Shown here piece by piece: positions 420-40,157 of a stretch of 64,000 bases of DNA (positions within the stretch are counted from its first letter, which is position 1; the number at the start of each line of letters is the position of its first letter). The DNA is from Rickettsiella grylli (GTDB lineage Bacteria > Pseudomonadota > Gammaproteobacteria > Diplorickettsiales > Diplorickettsiaceae), in assembly GCF_000168295.1 (NCBI RefSeq), contig NZ_AAQJ02000001.1, positions 1,451,001 to 1,515,000 on the forward strand, in the 5' to 3' direction. Under the pieces are notes generated by a model. The model had not been told where the DNA came from and ran no database searches. It saw only the letters and a program-made list of their open reading frames with translations. A program made the translations under genes and the position numbers.

Positions 420-420
420 T

Positions 421-496
421 TCTTGTTATCCTTATTATAATGTAGTTCAAAGAAGTTTATCGAAATATATCATAAATGATAATAGTTAATCTATAT
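421..496 (-). repeat. Leader of the Rpn gene, copy 1 of a dispersed repeat
   Basis: Read on the minus strand, this untranslated leader contains GATAAACTTC (461-452) and AATAAGGATAACAAGA (436-421). Both blocks recur in the same order at 39091-39100 and 39113-39128, and the flanking A/T-rich bases also align. The rest of the gap up to 611 shows no gene. Confidence 0.6.
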
Positions 497-611
497 CTTG
501 AATAAGACATTTCTTCTTTATATGTATTATGCAATCAAGCCGCTCTTGTTCACTTAATTGACTTAACTTCAGGATGTTTTTTCAGGAACTAACCGATTAT
601 GAGGCGTAAAC

Positions 612-16517: not shown

Positions 16518-18338
16518 TTATGAGCAGACTACACTACCGCCATTGATACTACATATTACTCCATCAAAAGTGACGGTACTTCCATCAGATCTAAATGTGA
16601 TTGCATTACTGCCTCCCGAATTTAAAACTATTTCTCTTCCAGTCATTGTAACAGCTGTTCCAGCACCGTTTGTTTGTATTCCGATTGCACTTGCCGAGGG
16701 AATATTGTTTACTGAAATTAAAGAATTAGTTATATCAACTATACTGCCCCCATTAGCAAAAACCCCATTTGAAGAGCCGCCAGCAGCGGAATCATTTTCT
16801 AAAAAGATATCTGTGTTTACAATCGAACCGCTCGTATTTTCAAATCTAACACCATCAATGCTATTAAATTCATTGTTAGCTACATTTATTTCACTGTTTT
16901 GTATCACCAAATTTGAACTACCTCGCCCTGTAACGCCTACTCTCAAGGCATTAAGAACGGAGTTATCAATCAATGTGTTTGTTGCTCCTAAATCAAACAC
17001 GGCAACTCTGTTTAATCCAGGTCCTGAAGAATTACCAATATCACTTCCTCGGATAATATTATTACCACCCGTCACAATAACACTTGAATCTGTTGGTTGA
17101 TTTGATAACAAAATAATATTTTCTAAGGTATTATTACCCTGAAGGGAAATTGTAGGGAGGATAAGTGTCGAACGTGCAGGATCAGTTGCTAGTTGACTAT
17201 AATCAGCGGTTCGTGACTGTACACTTTGACCAGGAAAAAGATTTACACTACTGGCGGTGGTATAAGTCCCTCCATTGAAATAAAATTGTGTATTAGGAAT
17301 TAAGTCATTTAAGGTTGTGACATTAGCTTGTGTAAAATCTGCAGGCCCGCACGGATTTTCAAATGTACAGCTCCCTAAAGTTAAATTTACCACATTTGCA
17401 TCATTTGGCTGACCCGTTTGACTGAAAAAAGCAATATTACTTCTTAAGGGAATATCATCTATTACCAACATCCCGCCCCTCGGCACCAATAACGGTTTTG
17501 CTTTTAAGCGCGTCGGAATGGTCGAACCACGGCCCAATTCCGCTACATGGCGCTCAACCGGGTCGGTGAGCCGTTCTTCAAGTTCTGGGTCGGCACGATG
17601 GGCTCTCAACCCTCCCCATTCCAAACCAATACCAAAGGCATAGGTACTGTGATGGAGGTTATCATACGAATAACTGCCTATCAGTTTTACGCCTTGCGTT
17701 AACCAATATTCTAAACCGGCCGCGCCTCCCCACACATTGTTGGTTTCTGCAGGGGAAAAATAATAGCTGCCGAGATATCCCTTCAACGAAGAATGTGGAA
17801 ACAATTGATAACCGGCCTTGATGTCCGCACCACTACCTGCATATTGATGCATTAAAAATACACGACCAAATTCAGAGTGACCGGTAAAAAAATGAACTAT
17901 TTCTGTGCCCGCTGTATAATGCCGATCACCCATCGGGATATAAGCATTGAGATGGGCGTCCCAACGGGAGCCGAAGGCTTCGATTCCTGGGTTGGCAATC
18001 CACAAGCGGGCATTATTATCAACACGACTGTAACCACCAAAAAAATAACCGCCCACAATCGCTGCTTGATTCGTGATCCAACGATAACCTAAACCTACAT
18101 CGAATTGGTTTTGATTATCGGTGCCATAAGACAACGCTGGATCCACATAAAGATTACGACTCATATCACCCGATAAGGGGAACATCGCGTCTGCTTGTCC
18201 GACCGTATAATCACTGGCAAGCACGAGACCAGATAGACGAGGGGGTAATGGAAAAGCCCCATAAGCCGGGTTCATCAACCCACTGAGCCCAGCAACTAAA
18301 AGGCTACTGAATAACCATCCTTGTCTTTTTCGGCTCAT
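16518..18338 (-). CDS. Inverse autotransporter with right-handed beta-helix passenger (copy A)
   Basis: The 606-residue protein has a signal peptide (1-27, cleavage after AYG), then an intimin/invasin-type beta-barrel domain (about 30-245) with alternating strands such as FDVGLGYRWI, AAIVGGYFFGGYSR and SYDNLHHSTYAFGIGLEW. A linker (DPVERHVAELGRGS) leads to a passenger with CTFENPCGP, FYFNGGTYT and QGNNTLENI followed by N/G/T-rich beta-helix coils. It ends in the motif CSINGGSVVCS. Residues 1-282 match copy B. AAAGGAG five bases before the ATG is a strong ribosome site. It is likely a surface protein with its passenger outside the cell; the ligand is unknown. Confidence 0.85.
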   Translation of the reverse strand: MSRKRQGWLFSSLLVAGLSGLMNPAYGAFPLPPRLSGLVLASDYTVGQADAMFPLSGDMSRNLYVDPALSYGTDNQNQFDVGLGYRWITNQAAIVGGYFFGGYSRVDNNARLWIANPGIEAFGSRWDAHLNAYIPMGDRHYTAGTEIVHFFTGHSEFGRVFLMHQYAGSGADIKAGYQLFPHSSLKGYLGSYYFSPAETNNVWGGAAGLEYWLTQGVKLIGSYSYDNLHHSTYAFGIGLEWGGLRAHRADPELEERLTDPVERHVAELGRGSTIPTRLKAKPLLVPRGGMLVIDDIPLRSNIAFFSQTGQPNDANVVNLTLGSCTFENPCGPADFTQANVTTLNDLIPNTQFYFNGGTYTTASSVNLFPGQSVQSRTADYSQLATDPARSTLILPTISLQGNNTLENIILLSNQPTDSSVIVTGGNNIIRGSDIGNSSGPGLNRVAVFDLGATNTLIDNSVLNALRVGVTGRGSSNLVIQNSEINVANNEFNSIDGVRFENTSGSIVNTDIFLENDSAAGGSSNGVFANGGSIVDITNSLISVNNIPSASAIGIQTNGAGTAVTMTGREIVLNSGGSNAITFRSDGSTVTFDGVICSINGGSVVCS

Positions 18339-18584: not shown

Positions 18585-19004
18585 TCATTGAATTATTTGT
18601 TTTCTAATTATCTTCGTTAAGACATTTTCTTTTATCCATTTTGAAAGCTCTTTTTTAGTTAATTTTTTTTCAGCAACTTTCAACATAACATCTACTATGA
18701 TTTTTGATTTTGCTTCAAGTTCATAGCCATTTATTTCTAAAAAATTATACATTACAGAAAAAGCCGTACGTTTATTTCCATCATTAAATAAATGACCTTG
18801 CGCTATCGCAATACAATATATAGATGCTATTTCAAATAGATCGTTAACCTCTTCATAAAACGAGTAATTTTCTGCGCGGTTTAAGGCGGCTTCTAAGGAT
18901 TTGTAAAGTGAAAGACCCGCTAGACCTCCTGAGTTATTAAGTATATCATCGTGAATTTTAATGACCTCTTCAATGGTTAGCATTTTTATTTTACGCATAT
19001 CCAT
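18585..19004 (-). CDS. Doc-type (Fic/DOC family) toxin of a toxin-antitoxin pair
   Basis: The 139-residue protein carries the Fic core HLFNDGNKRTAF (residues 71-82), close to the Doc form HxFx(N/D)xNKR of phage P1. Doc uses it to phosphorylate EF-Tu, whereas most Fic enzymes have HxFx(D/N)GNGR and AMPylate. The N-terminal LTIEEVIKIHDDILNNSGGLAGL also fits the death-on-curing family. Its ATG overlaps the stop of a 47-codon upstream frame (TAATG), the usual antitoxin-toxin coupling. It sits between the duplicated autotransporter genes, probably as an acquired or stabilising module. Confidence 0.85.
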   Translation of the reverse strand: MDMRKIKMLTIEEVIKIHDDILNNSGGLAGLSLYKSLEAALNRAENYSFYEEVNDLFEIASIYCIAIAQGHLFNDGNKRTAFSVMYNFLEINGYELEAKSKIIVDVMLKVAEKKLTKKELSKWIKENVLTKIIRKQIIQ

Positions 19005-19670: not shown

Positions 19671-21599
19671 TTAACAGAGCACGTTAGCACCATTGATTAA
19701 ACACTTAACCCCTGTAGTGGCTAAAGAAGTTGGGGATTTACCATGAAAACCGAAAATATGGGGGTTGGGCCCAATTACGTTTATAGTACCTCCCACAAGT
19801 TTGATTGAAGAAGGAACGTCGAAGTTTGCTGTTAGTATTCCCTCAGTTTCCTCTCCAGCCCCTGAGAGAAAAATGTTCGTATTTGTTGCATTAATCGTAC
19901 CTCCTGCCGTGCCTAGTCCAGCCGAAGCTCCTGGATGTTTTGTTTCTCTTATATCTACTATTGACGATACGACTTGAAGGTATACATTGTTAAGCGTAAG
20001 TATTGCCCCCTCGTCAGCATATGCTCCGAGAGGGAATACAGTTTCAGGAGGAAATAATACTGGAGTTGTTAGTACTTTTATTTTGCTATTTTGTATTGTT
20101 GTATTGGTAAAAACGCTTCCATAAAAACCGAATACGCTACCTAAATTGTTTTTTTCTATCAACAAACTGCTACTATCAATAAGTAGGTTGTTATCACTTT
20201 CATTAAATACACTAACCCCATCTCCAACGACAATATCACCTGGCAGACCAATTTGGCTACCCTTAATCACGTTATTATTCCCCTGTACACGAACATGCAC
20301 TTCATTAATAAAGCCACCTACTAACGTTAGGTTTTCTAGACTATTATTACCCTGTTCAATACTTCCTCCCACTATCATGTTTTCTAAGGTATTGTTACCT
20401 TGGAACGTAAGACTAGGGATGAAAAGCGTCGATCGTGCTGAACCGGTTGCCAATTGACTATAATCTACTGTTCGTCCTTGTAAACTTTGGCCAGGAACAA
20501 GGCTTATTGATTGGCCGTTGCTGGTATAATTACCGCCATTGAAATAGAATCGCGTATTAGGTAGAGGTAGCAACTCCCCTAAAGTATTAACACTGGCTTG
20601 TGAAAAGTCGGTGGGTCCACACGGGTTCTCAAATGTGCAATTAGCCAAACTTAAACCCACTCCACCATTGTTAGGCCCACCAGCTTCACTAAAAAATGCA
20701 ATATTATTTCCTAAGAGAATAATAACTCCAGTCGGTTGATCTCCTGTTATCAACGGTTTTGCTTTTAAGCGCGTCGGAATGGTCGAACCACGGCCCAATT
20801 CCGCTACATGGCGCTCAACCGGGTCGGTGAGCCGTTCTTCAAGTTCTGGGTCGGCACGATGGGCTCTCAACCCTCCCCATTCCAAACCAATACCAAAGGC
20901 ATAGGTACTGTGATGGAGGTTATCATACGAATAACTGCCTATCAGTTTTACGCCTTGCGTTAACCAATATTCTAAACCGGCCGCGCCTCCCCACACATTG
21001 TTGGTTTCTGCAGGGGAAAAATAATAGCTGCCGAGATATCCCTTCAACGAAGAATGTGGAAACAATTGATAACCGGCCTTGATGTCCGCACCACTACCTG
21101 CATATTGATGCATTAAAAATACACGACCAAATTCAGAGTGACCGGTAAAAAAATGAACTATTTCTGTGCCCGCTGTATAATGCCGATCACCCATCGGGAT
21201 ATAAGCATTGAGATGGGCGTCCCAACGGGAGCCGAAGGCTTCGATTCCTGGGTTGGCAATCCACAAGCGGGCATTATTATCAACACGACTGTAACCACCA
21301 AAAAAATAACCGCCCACAATCGCTGCTTGATTCGTGATCCAACGATAACCTAAACCTACATCGAATTGGTTTTGATTATCGGTGCCATAAGACAACGCTG
21401 GATCCACATAAAGATTACGACTCATATCACCCGATAAGGGGAACATCGCGTCTGCTTGTCCGACCGTATAATCACTGGCAAGCACGAGACCAGATAGACG
21501 AGGGGGTAATGGAAAAGCCCCATAAGCCGGGTTCATCAACCCACTGAGCCCAGCAACTAAAAGGCTACTGAATAACCATCCTTGTCTTTTTCGGCTCAT
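19671..21599 (-). CDS. Inverse autotransporter with right-handed beta-helix passenger (copy B)
   Basis: The 642-residue protein shares residues 1-282 (signal peptide and beta-barrel) with copy A and then diverges. The passenger head keeps NIAFFS, CTFENPCGP, FYFNGGNYT, DYSQLAT and QGNNTLENM, but the following beta-helix coils differ in sequence and number. It ends CLINGANVLC, again with a terminal cysteine pair. It starts 30 bases after the speB stop on the same strand, so it may be read through from the polyamine operon. It is predicted to be an outer-membrane protein with a displayed passenger. Confidence 0.85.
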   Translation of the reverse strand: MSRKRQGWLFSSLLVAGLSGLMNPAYGAFPLPPRLSGLVLASDYTVGQADAMFPLSGDMSRNLYVDPALSYGTDNQNQFDVGLGYRWITNQAAIVGGYFFGGYSRVDNNARLWIANPGIEAFGSRWDAHLNAYIPMGDRHYTAGTEIVHFFTGHSEFGRVFLMHQYAGSGADIKAGYQLFPHSSLKGYLGSYYFSPAETNNVWGGAAGLEYWLTQGVKLIGSYSYDNLHHSTYAFGIGLEWGGLRAHRADPELEERLTDPVERHVAELGRGSTIPTRLKAKPLITGDQPTGVIILLGNNIAFFSEAGGPNNGGVGLSLANCTFENPCGPTDFSQASVNTLGELLPLPNTRFYFNGGNYTSNGQSISLVPGQSLQGRTVDYSQLATGSARSTLFIPSLTFQGNNTLENMIVGGSIEQGNNSLENLTLVGGFINEVHVRVQGNNNVIKGSQIGLPGDIVVGDGVSVFNESDNNLLIDSSSLLIEKNNLGSVFGFYGSVFTNTTIQNSKIKVLTTPVLFPPETVFPLGAYADEGAILTLNNVYLQVVSSIVDIRETKHPGASAGLGTAGGTINATNTNIFLSGAGEETEGILTANFDVPSSIKLVGGTINVIGPNPHIFGFHGKSPTSLATTGVKCLINGANVLC

Positions 21600-37915: not shown

Positions 37916-37991
37916 TGGTGCTGGAACCAGGAGTCGAACCCGGGACCTACTGATTACAAATCAGTTGCTCTACCAGCTGAGCTATTCCAGC
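37916..37991 (-). tRNA. tRNA-Thr (anticodon TGT)
   Basis: The 76-base minus-strand sequence folds as a full cloverleaf. The acceptor is GCTGGAA/TTCCAGC, the D arm is AGCTCAGCTGGTAGAGC, and the anticodon arm ACTGATTTGTAATCAGT gives anticodon TGT. The T arm is CGGGTTCGACTCCTG, followed by A and an encoded CCA. It lies between trhO and the toxin-antitoxin island. Confidence 0.96.
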
Positions 37992-38008: not shown

Positions 38009-38043
38009 AATTGTAAACGGTTTAAGTTAAATTAGCAATTTAG
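38009..38043. repeat. 35-base direct repeat, left copy (birA 3' end)
   Basis: This sequence, beginning AATTGTAAACGGTTTAAG, is exactly repeated at 39151-39185. The right copy is the last 12 bases of birA plus 23 bases downstream. The left copy is the end of the 1.1-kb island next to tRNA-Thr. It also supplies the last codons of the ribbon-helix-helix gene. Confidence 0.93.
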
Positions 38044-38293
38044 TCTTTGAACTATTCATGCCGGATGTACCAATTTTGTACCCGTCCAAGCCAAGGTCTT
38101 TTCTCATCTTTTTGTAAGGTATTCGATCATTTTTTTCTTCTAGTCGAGCGGCTGCTATCAAATAGTCTTCTCTATCTTCAAAAAAATTCTCTAAAGCTTT
38201 TCTGATATAATAGCTTTTGGAGCGATGAGTTATAGTGGCCATTTGATCTAGCTTAATTTCTAATTCTTTTGGTAAACGAACTGCTATTGTCAT
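38027..38293 (-). CDS. Ribbon-helix-helix antitoxin of RelB type, orphan
   Basis: The 88-residue protein begins MTIAVRLPKELEIKLDQMA, a ribbon-helix-helix strand and helix, continues SKSYYIRKALENFFEDREDY and ends its toxin-binding part with YKKMRKDLGLDG, as in RelB/DUF6290 antitoxins. The last few codons come from the 35-base repeat, so the natural C-terminus may have been changed. The toxin gene expected downstream is missing; a tRNA gene lies there instead. It may still regulate its own promoter or act as an anti-addiction factor. Confidence 0.75.
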   Translation of the reverse strand: MTIAVRLPKELEIKLDQMATITHRSKSYYIRKALENFFEDREDYLIAAARLEEKNDRIPYKKMRKDLGLDGYKIGTSGMNSSKTKLLI

Positions 38294-38347
38294 AAAGCAC
38301 CTAAATATTTATATTGTAATACAAGTATAACATATTAAGCGAAAATT

Positions 38348-38519
38348 ATGACTCTAGCACAGCAATTAGAACAAAAAGGCTTAAAAAAAGGCCTAGAACA
38401 GGGCCGAAGAGAAGAAGTTAAAGATTGCTAAGAAGATGCTGGCTAAACGAATTAATCCTCCACTTATCAAAGAAATAACGGGTCTATCCGATCAGGATTT
38501 ACTGATTCTAGAAGAGTAG
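38348..38519 (+). pseudogene. C-terminal fragment of an Rpn (YhgA-like) nuclease with a frameshift
   Basis: From ATG 38348 the frame reads MTLAQQLEQKGLKKGLEQGR and stops at GATTGC-TAA. Shifting frame restores KIAKKMLAKRINPPLIKEIT, then GLSDQDLLILEE and a stop at 38517-38519. This is the typical glycine/lysine-rich tail of Rpn proteins. The N-terminal nuclease domain is missing. It belongs to the same family as the gene at 1-419. Confidence 0.75.
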
Positions 38520-38555
38520 TTATTTTTTTCTTCTCACTATTTAATAGGGCATTAT

Positions 38556-38708
38556 GTGGCCCTAGCCATACCTCCAAGTAATCATTTAGAAAAATTACGT
38601 GGAAATCTGGAAGAATTTTGGAGCATAAGAATCAATAAACAATGGAGAATTATATTTAAATGGAATAATGGTAATGCAGAAGAAGTAGACATTATAGATT
38701 ACCACTAG
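38556..38708 (+). pseudogene. Truncated HigB (RelE-family) toxin
   Basis: The frame ending at 38708 encodes LEKLRGNLEEFWSIRINKQW followed by RIIFKWNNGNAEEVDIIDYH, which is the C-terminal half of a HigB toxin including the basic RNase face. About 40 N-terminal residues are missing; a GTG at 38556 is the only plausible in-frame start. The frame is open back to the stop of the Rpn fragment. The intact antitoxin follows after 11 bases. Confidence 0.7.
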
Positions 38709-38719
38709 GAGAATTTTTT

Positions 38720-39019
38720 ATGTTACCTACAAACAGAGAGCCCACTCACCCAGGCGAAATGCTTTTAAAGGAATTTTTAGAACCTTTAGGGTTGAGCCAA
38801 AAATCCTTTAGCGACCATATAGGATGGACTTACACGCGTCTCAATGAAATTATTAATAAGCACAGAGGAATTACTGCTGATTCAGCCTTAACACTTGCAG
38901 AAGCTTTTCAAACTGAACCGGAGTTTTGGTTAAATTTACAATCAAGTTGGGACTTATGGCATAGCCTAAAAAAACATCGTAAAGTTAAACCATTAAATTT
39001 AACTCGTAGAGCTGCTTGA
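38720..39019 (+). CDS. higA: HigA-type antitoxin (XRE family)
   Basis: The 99-residue protein starts MLPTNREPTHPGEMLLKEFL, the usual HigA opening. Its helix-turn-helix covers about residues 25-55 (GLSQKSFSDHIGWTYTRLNE), and the end EPEFWLNLQSSWDLWHSLK is the family tail. HigA binds and blocks the HigB toxin and represses the operon. Here the upstream toxin is truncated, so this may be an orphan antitoxin. A ribosome site AGGAG precedes it by 9 bases. Confidence 0.9.
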   Translation: MLPTNREPTHPGEMLLKEFLEPLGLSQKSFSDHIGWTYTRLNEIINKHRGITADSALTLAEAFQTEPEFWLNLQSSWDLWHSLKKHRKVKPLNLTRRAA

Positions 39020-39055
39020 TTAGTAAAATATATAAAAAATAATACACTTATTCAA

Positions 39056-39131
39056 AATATCGATTAATTATTACCGTTTTAGACGTGTGAGATAAACTTC
39101 CTACTCAATCACAATAAGGATAACAAGACGT
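39056..39131 (+). repeat. Remnant of an Rpn-gene leader
   Basis: GATAAACTTC (39091-39100) and AATAAGGATAACAAGA (39113-39128) occur in the same order and at nearly the same spacing as in the leader of the Rpn gene at 1-419. Upstream A/T-rich bases also align at roughly three in four positions. No Rpn coding sequence follows; the birA repeat starts 20 bases later. Confidence 0.65.
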
Positions 39132-39150
39132 GAGAACTATTAAAGTTCAG

Positions 39151-39185
39151 AATTGTAAACGGTTTAAGTTAAATTAGCAATTTAG
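39151..39185. repeat. 35-base direct repeat, right copy (native birA 3' end)
   Basis: Exact partner of 38009-38043 at an offset of 1142 bases. It spans the birA stop codon and 23 bases beyond it, so this is the copy in its original context. Confidence 0.93.
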
Positions 39186-40157
39186 AAGGTTGCTTAATTT
39201 TACGCTAATTTCTCCGTTATTAAAATAATGTAATGTATTTTTAACTTGTACGCAGAGTTGACCACGGCTATTTATTCCTTTTCCGATACCTTCAACACGA
39301 TCATTTTTATTTTGTATCAAAAGTAATTTGTCCATAAAACCGTCAAGTCGTTGCCATTCGCTCATAAAATAATTTAAACCTTTCACTTCATAAAGTTTAA
39401 GTGTTTGAAGCAAATTTTTTAAAATGAGCATAGCCAGTACGTTACGTTTTGGCGGTAATCTACTGATTGAAAAGATACTGGTAACGAGTTGTTCATTAAT
39501 AGGAAAAAAAGTGGATGGGTTGTAAAGATTTAAGCCAATACCAATAACCACTTTCTGTCGTTTCGTATTTATTAATCGCGACTCAATTAAAATGCCTGCT
39601 AATTTTTTTCCCTCATAAATAATGTCATTCGGCCATTTGAGTTGTATTTTTTTTAATCCATATTCTTCCAGCGCGTTAACTACAGCAATTCCGACAATTA
39701 AAGTGAGTCCTTCTAATTGCTTCTGTAAATTTGAAAAGGACCATAGAAGTGATAAAGCAATATTTTTCCCAAAAACGGAATACCACGGACGTTGAAATTG
39801 TCCACGAGCGGCGGTTTGTTGTTCGGCAAATACAGCATAATTCCCTTTCGTGATGATTCGTTTGTTGAGTAAATAATTATTCGTAGAATCAATAGACATC
39901 AGTATTTTTACGTGAGAAAGTAATTGATTCAGCGTACCTAATTCATTCGTGATAGAGGACGTATTCAGTAGTTCTAATCCACCTATAATTCGAAAAAATT
40001 TATCATTTAAACGGTCTAAATTTATGGAAGGGTCTAGACTATTTTTTAATACCTGAGGGACTCGTTTACAAGAAATACCTAAACATTGGCTGATTTCCTT
40101 ATCAGAATGAAAGTTACCGTCTGCCAACAAAGTTAATATCGACTTTAAAAAAGACAT
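39174..40157 (-). CDS. birA: Biotin--protein ligase and biotin operon repressor BirA
   Basis: BirA attaches biotin to the BCCP subunit of acetyl-CoA carboxylase and, in forms with a DNA-binding domain, represses bio genes. The 327-residue protein has a winged-helix N-terminus (SDKEISQCLGISCKRVPQVL), then IDSTNNYL, the biotinyl-AMP loop AARGQFQRPWYS, LKWPNDIIYEGKKLAGIL and GIGLNL. Class II length suggests a role in controlling the bio operon here, but no clear operator was recognised at bioA or bioB. Its last 12 bases are part of the 35-base repeat. Confidence 0.94.
   Translation of the reverse strand: MSFLKSILTLLADGNFHSDKEISQCLGISCKRVPQVLKNSLDPSINLDRLNDKFFRIIGGLELLNTSSITNELGTLNQLLSHVKILMSIDSTNNYLLNKRIITKGNYAVFAEQQTAARGQFQRPWYSVFGKNIALSLLWSFSNLQKQLEGLTLIVGIAVVNALEEYGLKKIQLKWPNDIIYEGKKLAGILIESRLINTKRQKVVIGIGLNLYNPSTFFPINEQLVTSIFSISRLPPKRNVLAMLILKNLLQTLKLYEVKGLNYFMSEWQRLDGFMDKLLLIQNKNDRVEGIGKGINSRGQLCVQVKNTLHYFNNGEISVKLSNLLNC

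Follow-up and report, generated by a model that had tools for sequence, protein, structure and literature searches.

A leader of an Rpn-family toxin gene left without its gene, and the probable exchange of Rpn bodies between leaders and antitoxin tails

The sequence at positions 39027-39129 (plus strand) of the window, i.e., of the whole 64-kb stretch of DNA that was analysed, C1:1451001-1515000, most likely represents what remains of an Rpn-family toxin gene that has lost its body, namely its putative promoter with the ribosome-binding sequence. In the bacterial family, this leader forms a 5' module common to two types of Rpn-family genes that differ strongly in other respects, and comparisons within the genome and between relatives make it probable that these genes undergo a recombinational swapping of cassettes which leaves leaders and antitoxin tails behind. 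Conserved patches are expected to serve as crossover points at the two gene ends: at the 5' end the final ca. 26 bases of the leader, and at the other end the region where the antitoxin tail, with its four-residue repeats, begins. Recombination at both patches would exchange the catalytic bodies, so that the displaced genes would leave their leaders and tails at the site. The exchange presumably proceeds by homologous or short-homology recombination.

The orphan leader is located in a 1,107-bp insertion (38044-39150) between a tRNA-Thr gene (TGT; 37916-37991, minus strand), whose promoter is duplicated, and birA on the other side (39174-40157, minus strand), the product of which shows 66% identity to BirA of a Coxiellaceae metagenome bin, suggesting a Rickettsiella-like intracellular gammaproteobacterium as the source. 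The sequence-only reading had described the place as rearranged and as containing a 35-base repeat, and both statements are borne out. The repeat (AATTGTAAACGGTTTAAGTTAAATTAGCAATTTAG) is found at 38009-38043, adjoining tRNA-Thr, and at 39151-39185 on the birA side, where it includes the birA stop codon and the tRNA-Thr promoter. In the seven same-genus genomes with a readable site, the tRNA-Thr promoter occurs just once after birA and leads to the tRNA; the insertion and the 35-bp repeat are present only in the genome of the window. The repeat should therefore be regarded as a duplicated tRNA-Thr promoter bounding a wider insertion, which consists of toxin-antitoxin debris. The first component is an ORF of 88 amino acids on the minus strand (38027-38293), which resembles RelB-family antitoxins (NF048017, 62 bits at a cut-off of 50) and whose end reads into the repeat. 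It is followed on the plus strand by an orphan, frameshifted C-terminal Rpn tail similar to RpnS antitoxins (38349-38519, from tail searches), by the C-terminal part of a HigB-like toxin frame with a missing 5' end (38556-38708), which was named by eye and from its position before HigA and yielded no match in the profile library, and by an intact gene for a HigA antitoxin of 99 amino acids (38720-39019; TIGR02607, 100 bits). The leader with its AAGGA motif comes next, as recognized in genome, profile and family searches, and leads into ca. 21 bases from the start of an Rpn-family coding sequence that is otherwise lost (GTGAGAACTATTAAAGTTCAG; 39130-39150, plus strand); these bases match the start of a hybrid gene at 981.8 kb of contig C1 and are cut at the repeat. 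No Rpn gene follows, and the nuclease-core body is absent from the 38-39 kb region, which retains just the leader, these ca. 21 bases and the frameshifted tail; the locus is a remnant and not a gene. The leader points at the 3' end of birA with no intact gene behind it, and is probably a non-functional relic. In the window the tail precedes the leader, an order that a single event would not produce and that weighs against the exchange model.

The homologous region of the orphan leader comprises ca. 103 bases, extends up to the GTG at 39130, and exceeds the two sequence blocks quoted earlier. Its counterpart in the window is the leader of an intact Rpn gene (420-523, minus strand; genome, profile and family searches), which leaves the window at 1-419. 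That the leader of this gene recurs at 39 kb, just before the 35-base repeat, had been proposed from the sequence and is confirmed here: a profile of leaders from elsewhere, with both window copies left out, matches 39025-39149 with an E value of 1.9e-24 and 539-397 on the minus strand with 1.4e-25; the next-best match in the 64-kb window has an E value of 0.83. The genome-wide search recommended at the same time was carried out with the 76 bases at 39056-39131 against the 1.58-Mb genome, and further copies preceding Rpn genes were indeed obtained. Eight matches were found at E<2e-4, including the query itself, at positions 981830-981909 (85%, E 1.6e-18), 351393 (E 1.1e-7), 1451421-1451496 (leader of the Rpn gene in the window; E 1.6e-5, with 74% identity over 72 bases), 466971, 1254191, 794196 and 1172551, and the best match after these eight had an E value of 0.2. 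An Rpn-family gene, pseudogene or fragment is located 3' of every leader in the genome except the orphan in the window. The pattern CAATCACAATAAGGATAACAA, with up to three mismatches, likewise occurs seven times, each time 5' of an Rpn-family 5' end or its remnant, as compared to a single occurrence of the reversed control. The aligned leaders are ca. 105 bases long and carry AATAAGGATAACAAGA immediately 5' of the start codon; AAGGA is a ribosome-binding sequence. The leader presumably acts as an active promoter. An obvious sigma-70 promoter was rejected, as a scan of the leader yielded no more sites than were found in shuffled sequences, and a structured RNA was discarded as well, with no consensus pairs predicted.

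A search model built from sequence only and applied to 16 genomes of the bacterial family recovered 22 leader matches at E<=2e-4, of which 18 directly precede an Rpn-family gene (11 of the PF04754 type, six of a second type termed WKD, and one fusion of both). Note that 12 of the 22 matches are part of the search model by construction; among the ten outside the model, seven precede an Rpn-family gene. The four orphan leaders are those of the window, G015, G005 (contig C188) and G001. A small gene of ribbon-helix-helix-like type (Pfam assignment below the cut-off) often ends within the 5' part of the leader (..KEYIKK stop), which suggests that it may be the ancestral neighbour of the leader. 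The orphan leader of G015 lies 3' of a ribbon-helix-helix-like gene. No leader can be recognised at about half of the Rpn-family loci of the bacterial family, which weighs against the exchange model. As a separate observation, the orphan leader of G001 (C50:4831-4936; L153 1501-1606) directly follows a ribbon-helix-helix-like gene and directly precedes what resembles a HigB/RelE-type toxin gene with its antitoxin, the toxin being named by eye.

Two types of bodies are found behind the leader. PF04754 (Transposase_31) bodies are present in leader-bearing loci such as the 467 kb copy (E 4.8e-63), and the WKD type, named for a conserved WKD..LD.YF motif, also contains a HIEVQ motif and an RpnS tail and was found in 12 of the 16 family genomes (e.g., L113 4142-5104 and L116 5364-6284). 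No Pfam family matches the WKD-type body above the cut-off, and TIGR01784 stays below it. As to a possible PD-(D/E)XK nuclease fold of the WKD type, HHalign pairs its ExQ motif with that of PF04754-type bodies, but with a probability of 1.4%. The structure model of the WKD type is of low confidence (pLDDT 61.8) and gave no significant fold matches. The two gene types could share their leader partly because the arrangement as a whole was inherited from a common ancestor and the bodies then diverged fast.

The larger finding concerns the boundaries of identity among the Rpn copies, with the reading of the genome covering the regions around database or leader matches. As shown by pairwise identity profiles, five Rpn bodies in the genome are about 95-99.5% identical, but only from about -26 to about +740 relative to the gene start, and identity outside these limits is at background unless the copies share a type of flank (467/1254 kb; 351/794 kb) or of tail (351/1254 kb; 467/1172 kb in part). 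The copies at 1172 and 1254 kb, for example, are 99.5% identical over 788 bases and have unrelated upstream sequences. This pattern shows that upstream flank, body and tail combine independently, the joints being the leader core and the repeats with which the tail begins. In the window, the core corresponds to 39104-39129 (plus strand), ca. 26 bases which, as judged from copy comparisons and the pattern search, stay with the body when upstream flanks differ and mark the 5' boundary of exchange. The earlier notion of a conserved leader as part of a mobile unit is refined in that only these last ca. 26 bases travel with the body, the other ca. 80 remaining at the site or being swapped on their own. 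In the hybrid gene at 981 kb, an Rpn start is joined to a WKD fragment at ATAACAAGTG, as would be expected from an incomplete replacement.

Two cross-locus comparisons in relatives show the gene changing while the leader stays put. Between G006 (L111) and G008 (L113), the upstream flank is conserved at 90-100%, the leader at 82-85% and a downstream orphan tail at 82-100%, whereas the gene in between is of the PF04754 type in one and of the WKD type in the other, with similarity resuming at an ATG. Two loci of G011 share the leader and upstream region (88-98%) and the orphan tail (80-98%) and have unrelated bodies. Together with the five bodies of the genome, these swaps answer the question, raised in the sequence-only reading, of whether the boundaries are constant: they are. 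An ordinary decay of paralogues, in which genes were duplicated with their promoters, bodies and tails were lost by deletion and insertion of insertion sequences (IS), and short leaders and tails persisted with no special exchange, appears rather unlikely in view of these data. It agrees with the large number of pseudogenes among the Rpn copies and with the interruption of several of them by IS, and would explain the window orphan, taken alone, well enough. It does not account for 99.5% identical bodies between unrelated flanks, for unrelated bodies at loci where leader and orphan tail are both conserved, or for tails matching other loci. The loci of G005, G006 and G008 adjoin a gene for a phage-type exonuclease VIII, which is a plausible candidate for a helper of exchange. 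This location of the leader-Rpn locus beside an exonuclease VIII gene and phage-like neighbours was seen in several loci of the relatives (L111 1127-3535, L112, L113, L114 and L115), and the arrangement is present twice in G006.

The swapping of cassettes also bears on the antitoxin tails. A tail profile detected second, unattached tails 3' of genes that have a tail of their own, and all 12 orphan tails tested scored better against a tail elsewhere than against that of their own gene, three of them being 86-98% identical to such a tail; two orphan tails are arranged in series in L117. The orphan-tail profile matches the antitoxin RpnA-S, the structure of which has been solved (7TH0), with an E value of 6.6e-8, and RpnA-S is also matched by the tail profiles of the PF04754 and WKD types (E 0.0012 each). 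A dN/dS value of about 0.3 for the two orphan-tail pairs comparable between loci, and the presence of AACAAGGA 5' of the ATG in the G011 orphan tails, are consistent with orphan tails being translated genes. The ATG is conserved at the start of the tail in most genes, which is only suggestive of an internal translation start that would give rise to RpnS. The tails that were kept presumably still neutralise the displaced toxins. More tentatively, the exchange may be a two-point process, in which incoming toxins of the Rpn class, even with unrelated bodies, slot in between a fixed leader and the tail of the predecessor, which is kept as an intact translated immunity gene; serial orphan tails would then be a record of past toxins.

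For the window itself, a site-specific integration at tRNA-Thr has to be considered, with the 35-bp repeats as attachment sites and the Rpn, HigBA and RelB pieces as passengers of the integrated element. The perfect direct repeat next to a tRNA gene and the empty site in relatives fit such a remnant, as does the recurrence of the same ca. 40 bp upstream of the promoter at the second tRNA-Thr. We regard it as unlikely, since the insert contains no integrase, the repeats lie at the promoter and not at the 3' end of the tRNA, the second tRNA-Thr has no second repeat, and the model accounts for the site, not for the leader. Apart from this, the promoters of the tRNA-Thr genes TGT and CGT were seen to be immediately preceded by the same ca. 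40 bp (GGTACAAAATTGGTACATCYGGCATGAATARYTCAAAGA), at 38044-38083 of the window and at L221 5855-5893 (C1 145.9 kb). Relatives are without this sequence at the birA site, and it may be one end of an element that targets tRNA-Thr promoters. The ca. 40-bp GGTACAAAATTGG beside tRNA-Thr was rejected as a viral attachment site, with no exact match in viral contigs and no repeat at the second tRNA-Thr.

The sequence-only reading had attributed the orphan leader to a movement of the Rpn gene itself. In the case of a self-mobile Rpn gene, with the leader as an end of the element, the nuclease would cut, the gene would move together with the leader, and orphans would be scars of such events. The abrupt ends of near-identical copies and the direct repeat adjoining the orphan speak for this idea, as do the stimulation of RecA-independent recombination by Rpn proteins and the possible double entry of rpnC into one enterobacterial site (PMC5350276). 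It is nevertheless very unlikely: the 35-base repeat consists of duplicated tRNA-Thr promoter sequence, exact flanking direct repeats of at least 13 bases were found at none of the 12 other Rpn loci in the genome (within 700 bases on each side), the 3' boundary falls inside the gene, the gene changes while the leader stays, and published work describes neither defined ends nor autonomous transposition (PMC10327210). The 35-bp repeat was thus rejected as a general signature of Rpn insertion, the window remnant alone having it and the 12 loci lacking a target-site duplication within the same range. Rpn loci resemble insertion sequences in their multiple near-identical copies with abrupt ends, but differ from them in the lack of flanking direct repeats at these 12 loci and in having one end inside a coding sequence. 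A 1.3-kb IS is present in 16 full-length copies on the chromosome (at C1 310974, 349199, 460872, 463469, 980056 and other positions), at least four to five of which lie inside or abut Rpn-family genes, a number above that expected from the small part of the genome taken up by these genes (binomial P roughly 1e-4, in a test chosen post hoc).

Rpn proteins are known as intragenic toxin-antitoxin systems acting against phages (PMC10327210) and were studied earlier as recombination-promoting nucleases (PMC5350276). The genes described here share with the known Rpn proteins (YhgA-like, PF04754/TIGR01784; RpnL/RpnS) the PF04754 body, a variable C-terminal tail with four-residue repeats, the separate rpnS-like tail genes downstream, and the gain or loss of one gene at a time with no transposon ends (PMC10327210; PMC5350276). 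The downstream rpnS copies of E. coli group with the gene to which they belong (PMC10327210), whereas each of the 12 orphan tails tested here is closer to another locus. Unlike in known Rpn systems, entire bodies appear to be exchanged between the conserved leader and the tail, and a second type of body shares both. A similar arrangement is known from the orphan modules of CDI/Rhs systems, where a new toxin stands behind a conserved upstream region and older immunity-type pieces remain downstream, sometimes serially (PMC4927057). The remnants downstream of the Rpn genes likewise stem from a displaced gene other than the one now present (in 12 of 12 orphan tails), but the antitoxin resides within the toxin gene and the toxin body is swapped, not the C-terminal tip, so that the likeness is one of gene arrangement only and the Rpn loci are not members of those systems. 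We know of no route by which Rpn proteins would be delivered to other cells. As to the spread of rpn genes, terminal repeats and target duplications were not found around them, and recombination or hitch-hiking was suggested with no defined ends (PMC10327210). In the bacterial family studied here, the ends of exchange are defined, one falling on the promoter leader and the other on the antitoxin tail, which turns rpn diversification into a testable model of cassette exchange. Such an exchange explains why leaders and antitoxin tails occur without a toxin, and the orphan of the window clearly illustrates a leader that stayed after its gene was lost.

A weaker copy of the leader had also been proposed at 18582-18543, just after the Doc gene, which is not upheld: the segment was missed by the profile and by the 76-base genome search, and was equalled or surpassed against the Rpn leader by 226 of 500 shuffles, i.e., at chance level. 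When compared to the orphan leader alone, it was matched by 1 of 500 shuffles and by 1 to 5 of 1049 window tiles, so that it may conceivably be a badly decayed leader copy. Chance similarity in AT-rich sequence, which accounts for the resemblance of this segment to the Rpn leader, is hardly conceivable for the 39 kb site, where it is ruled out by the genome search, the pattern control and the profile. The leader of the window Rpn gene is preceded by a C-terminal remnant of HigA (533-586, minus strand), in which FLKKHPEVKSIK*TRAA* aligns with LKKHRKVKPLNLTRRAA at a score reached by 0 of 1000 shuffles. Since this remnant lies 5' of the leader at 420-523, a HigA-leader-Rpn order must have been ancestral to the two sites in the window, which suffered reciprocal loss, one having kept Rpn and the other HigA. 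The Doc region (18585-19004) is flanked by two large paralogous ORFs (16518-18338 and 19671-21599) with DNA blocks of 96-100% identity, which indicates a recent duplication or exchange around this toxin-antitoxin site.
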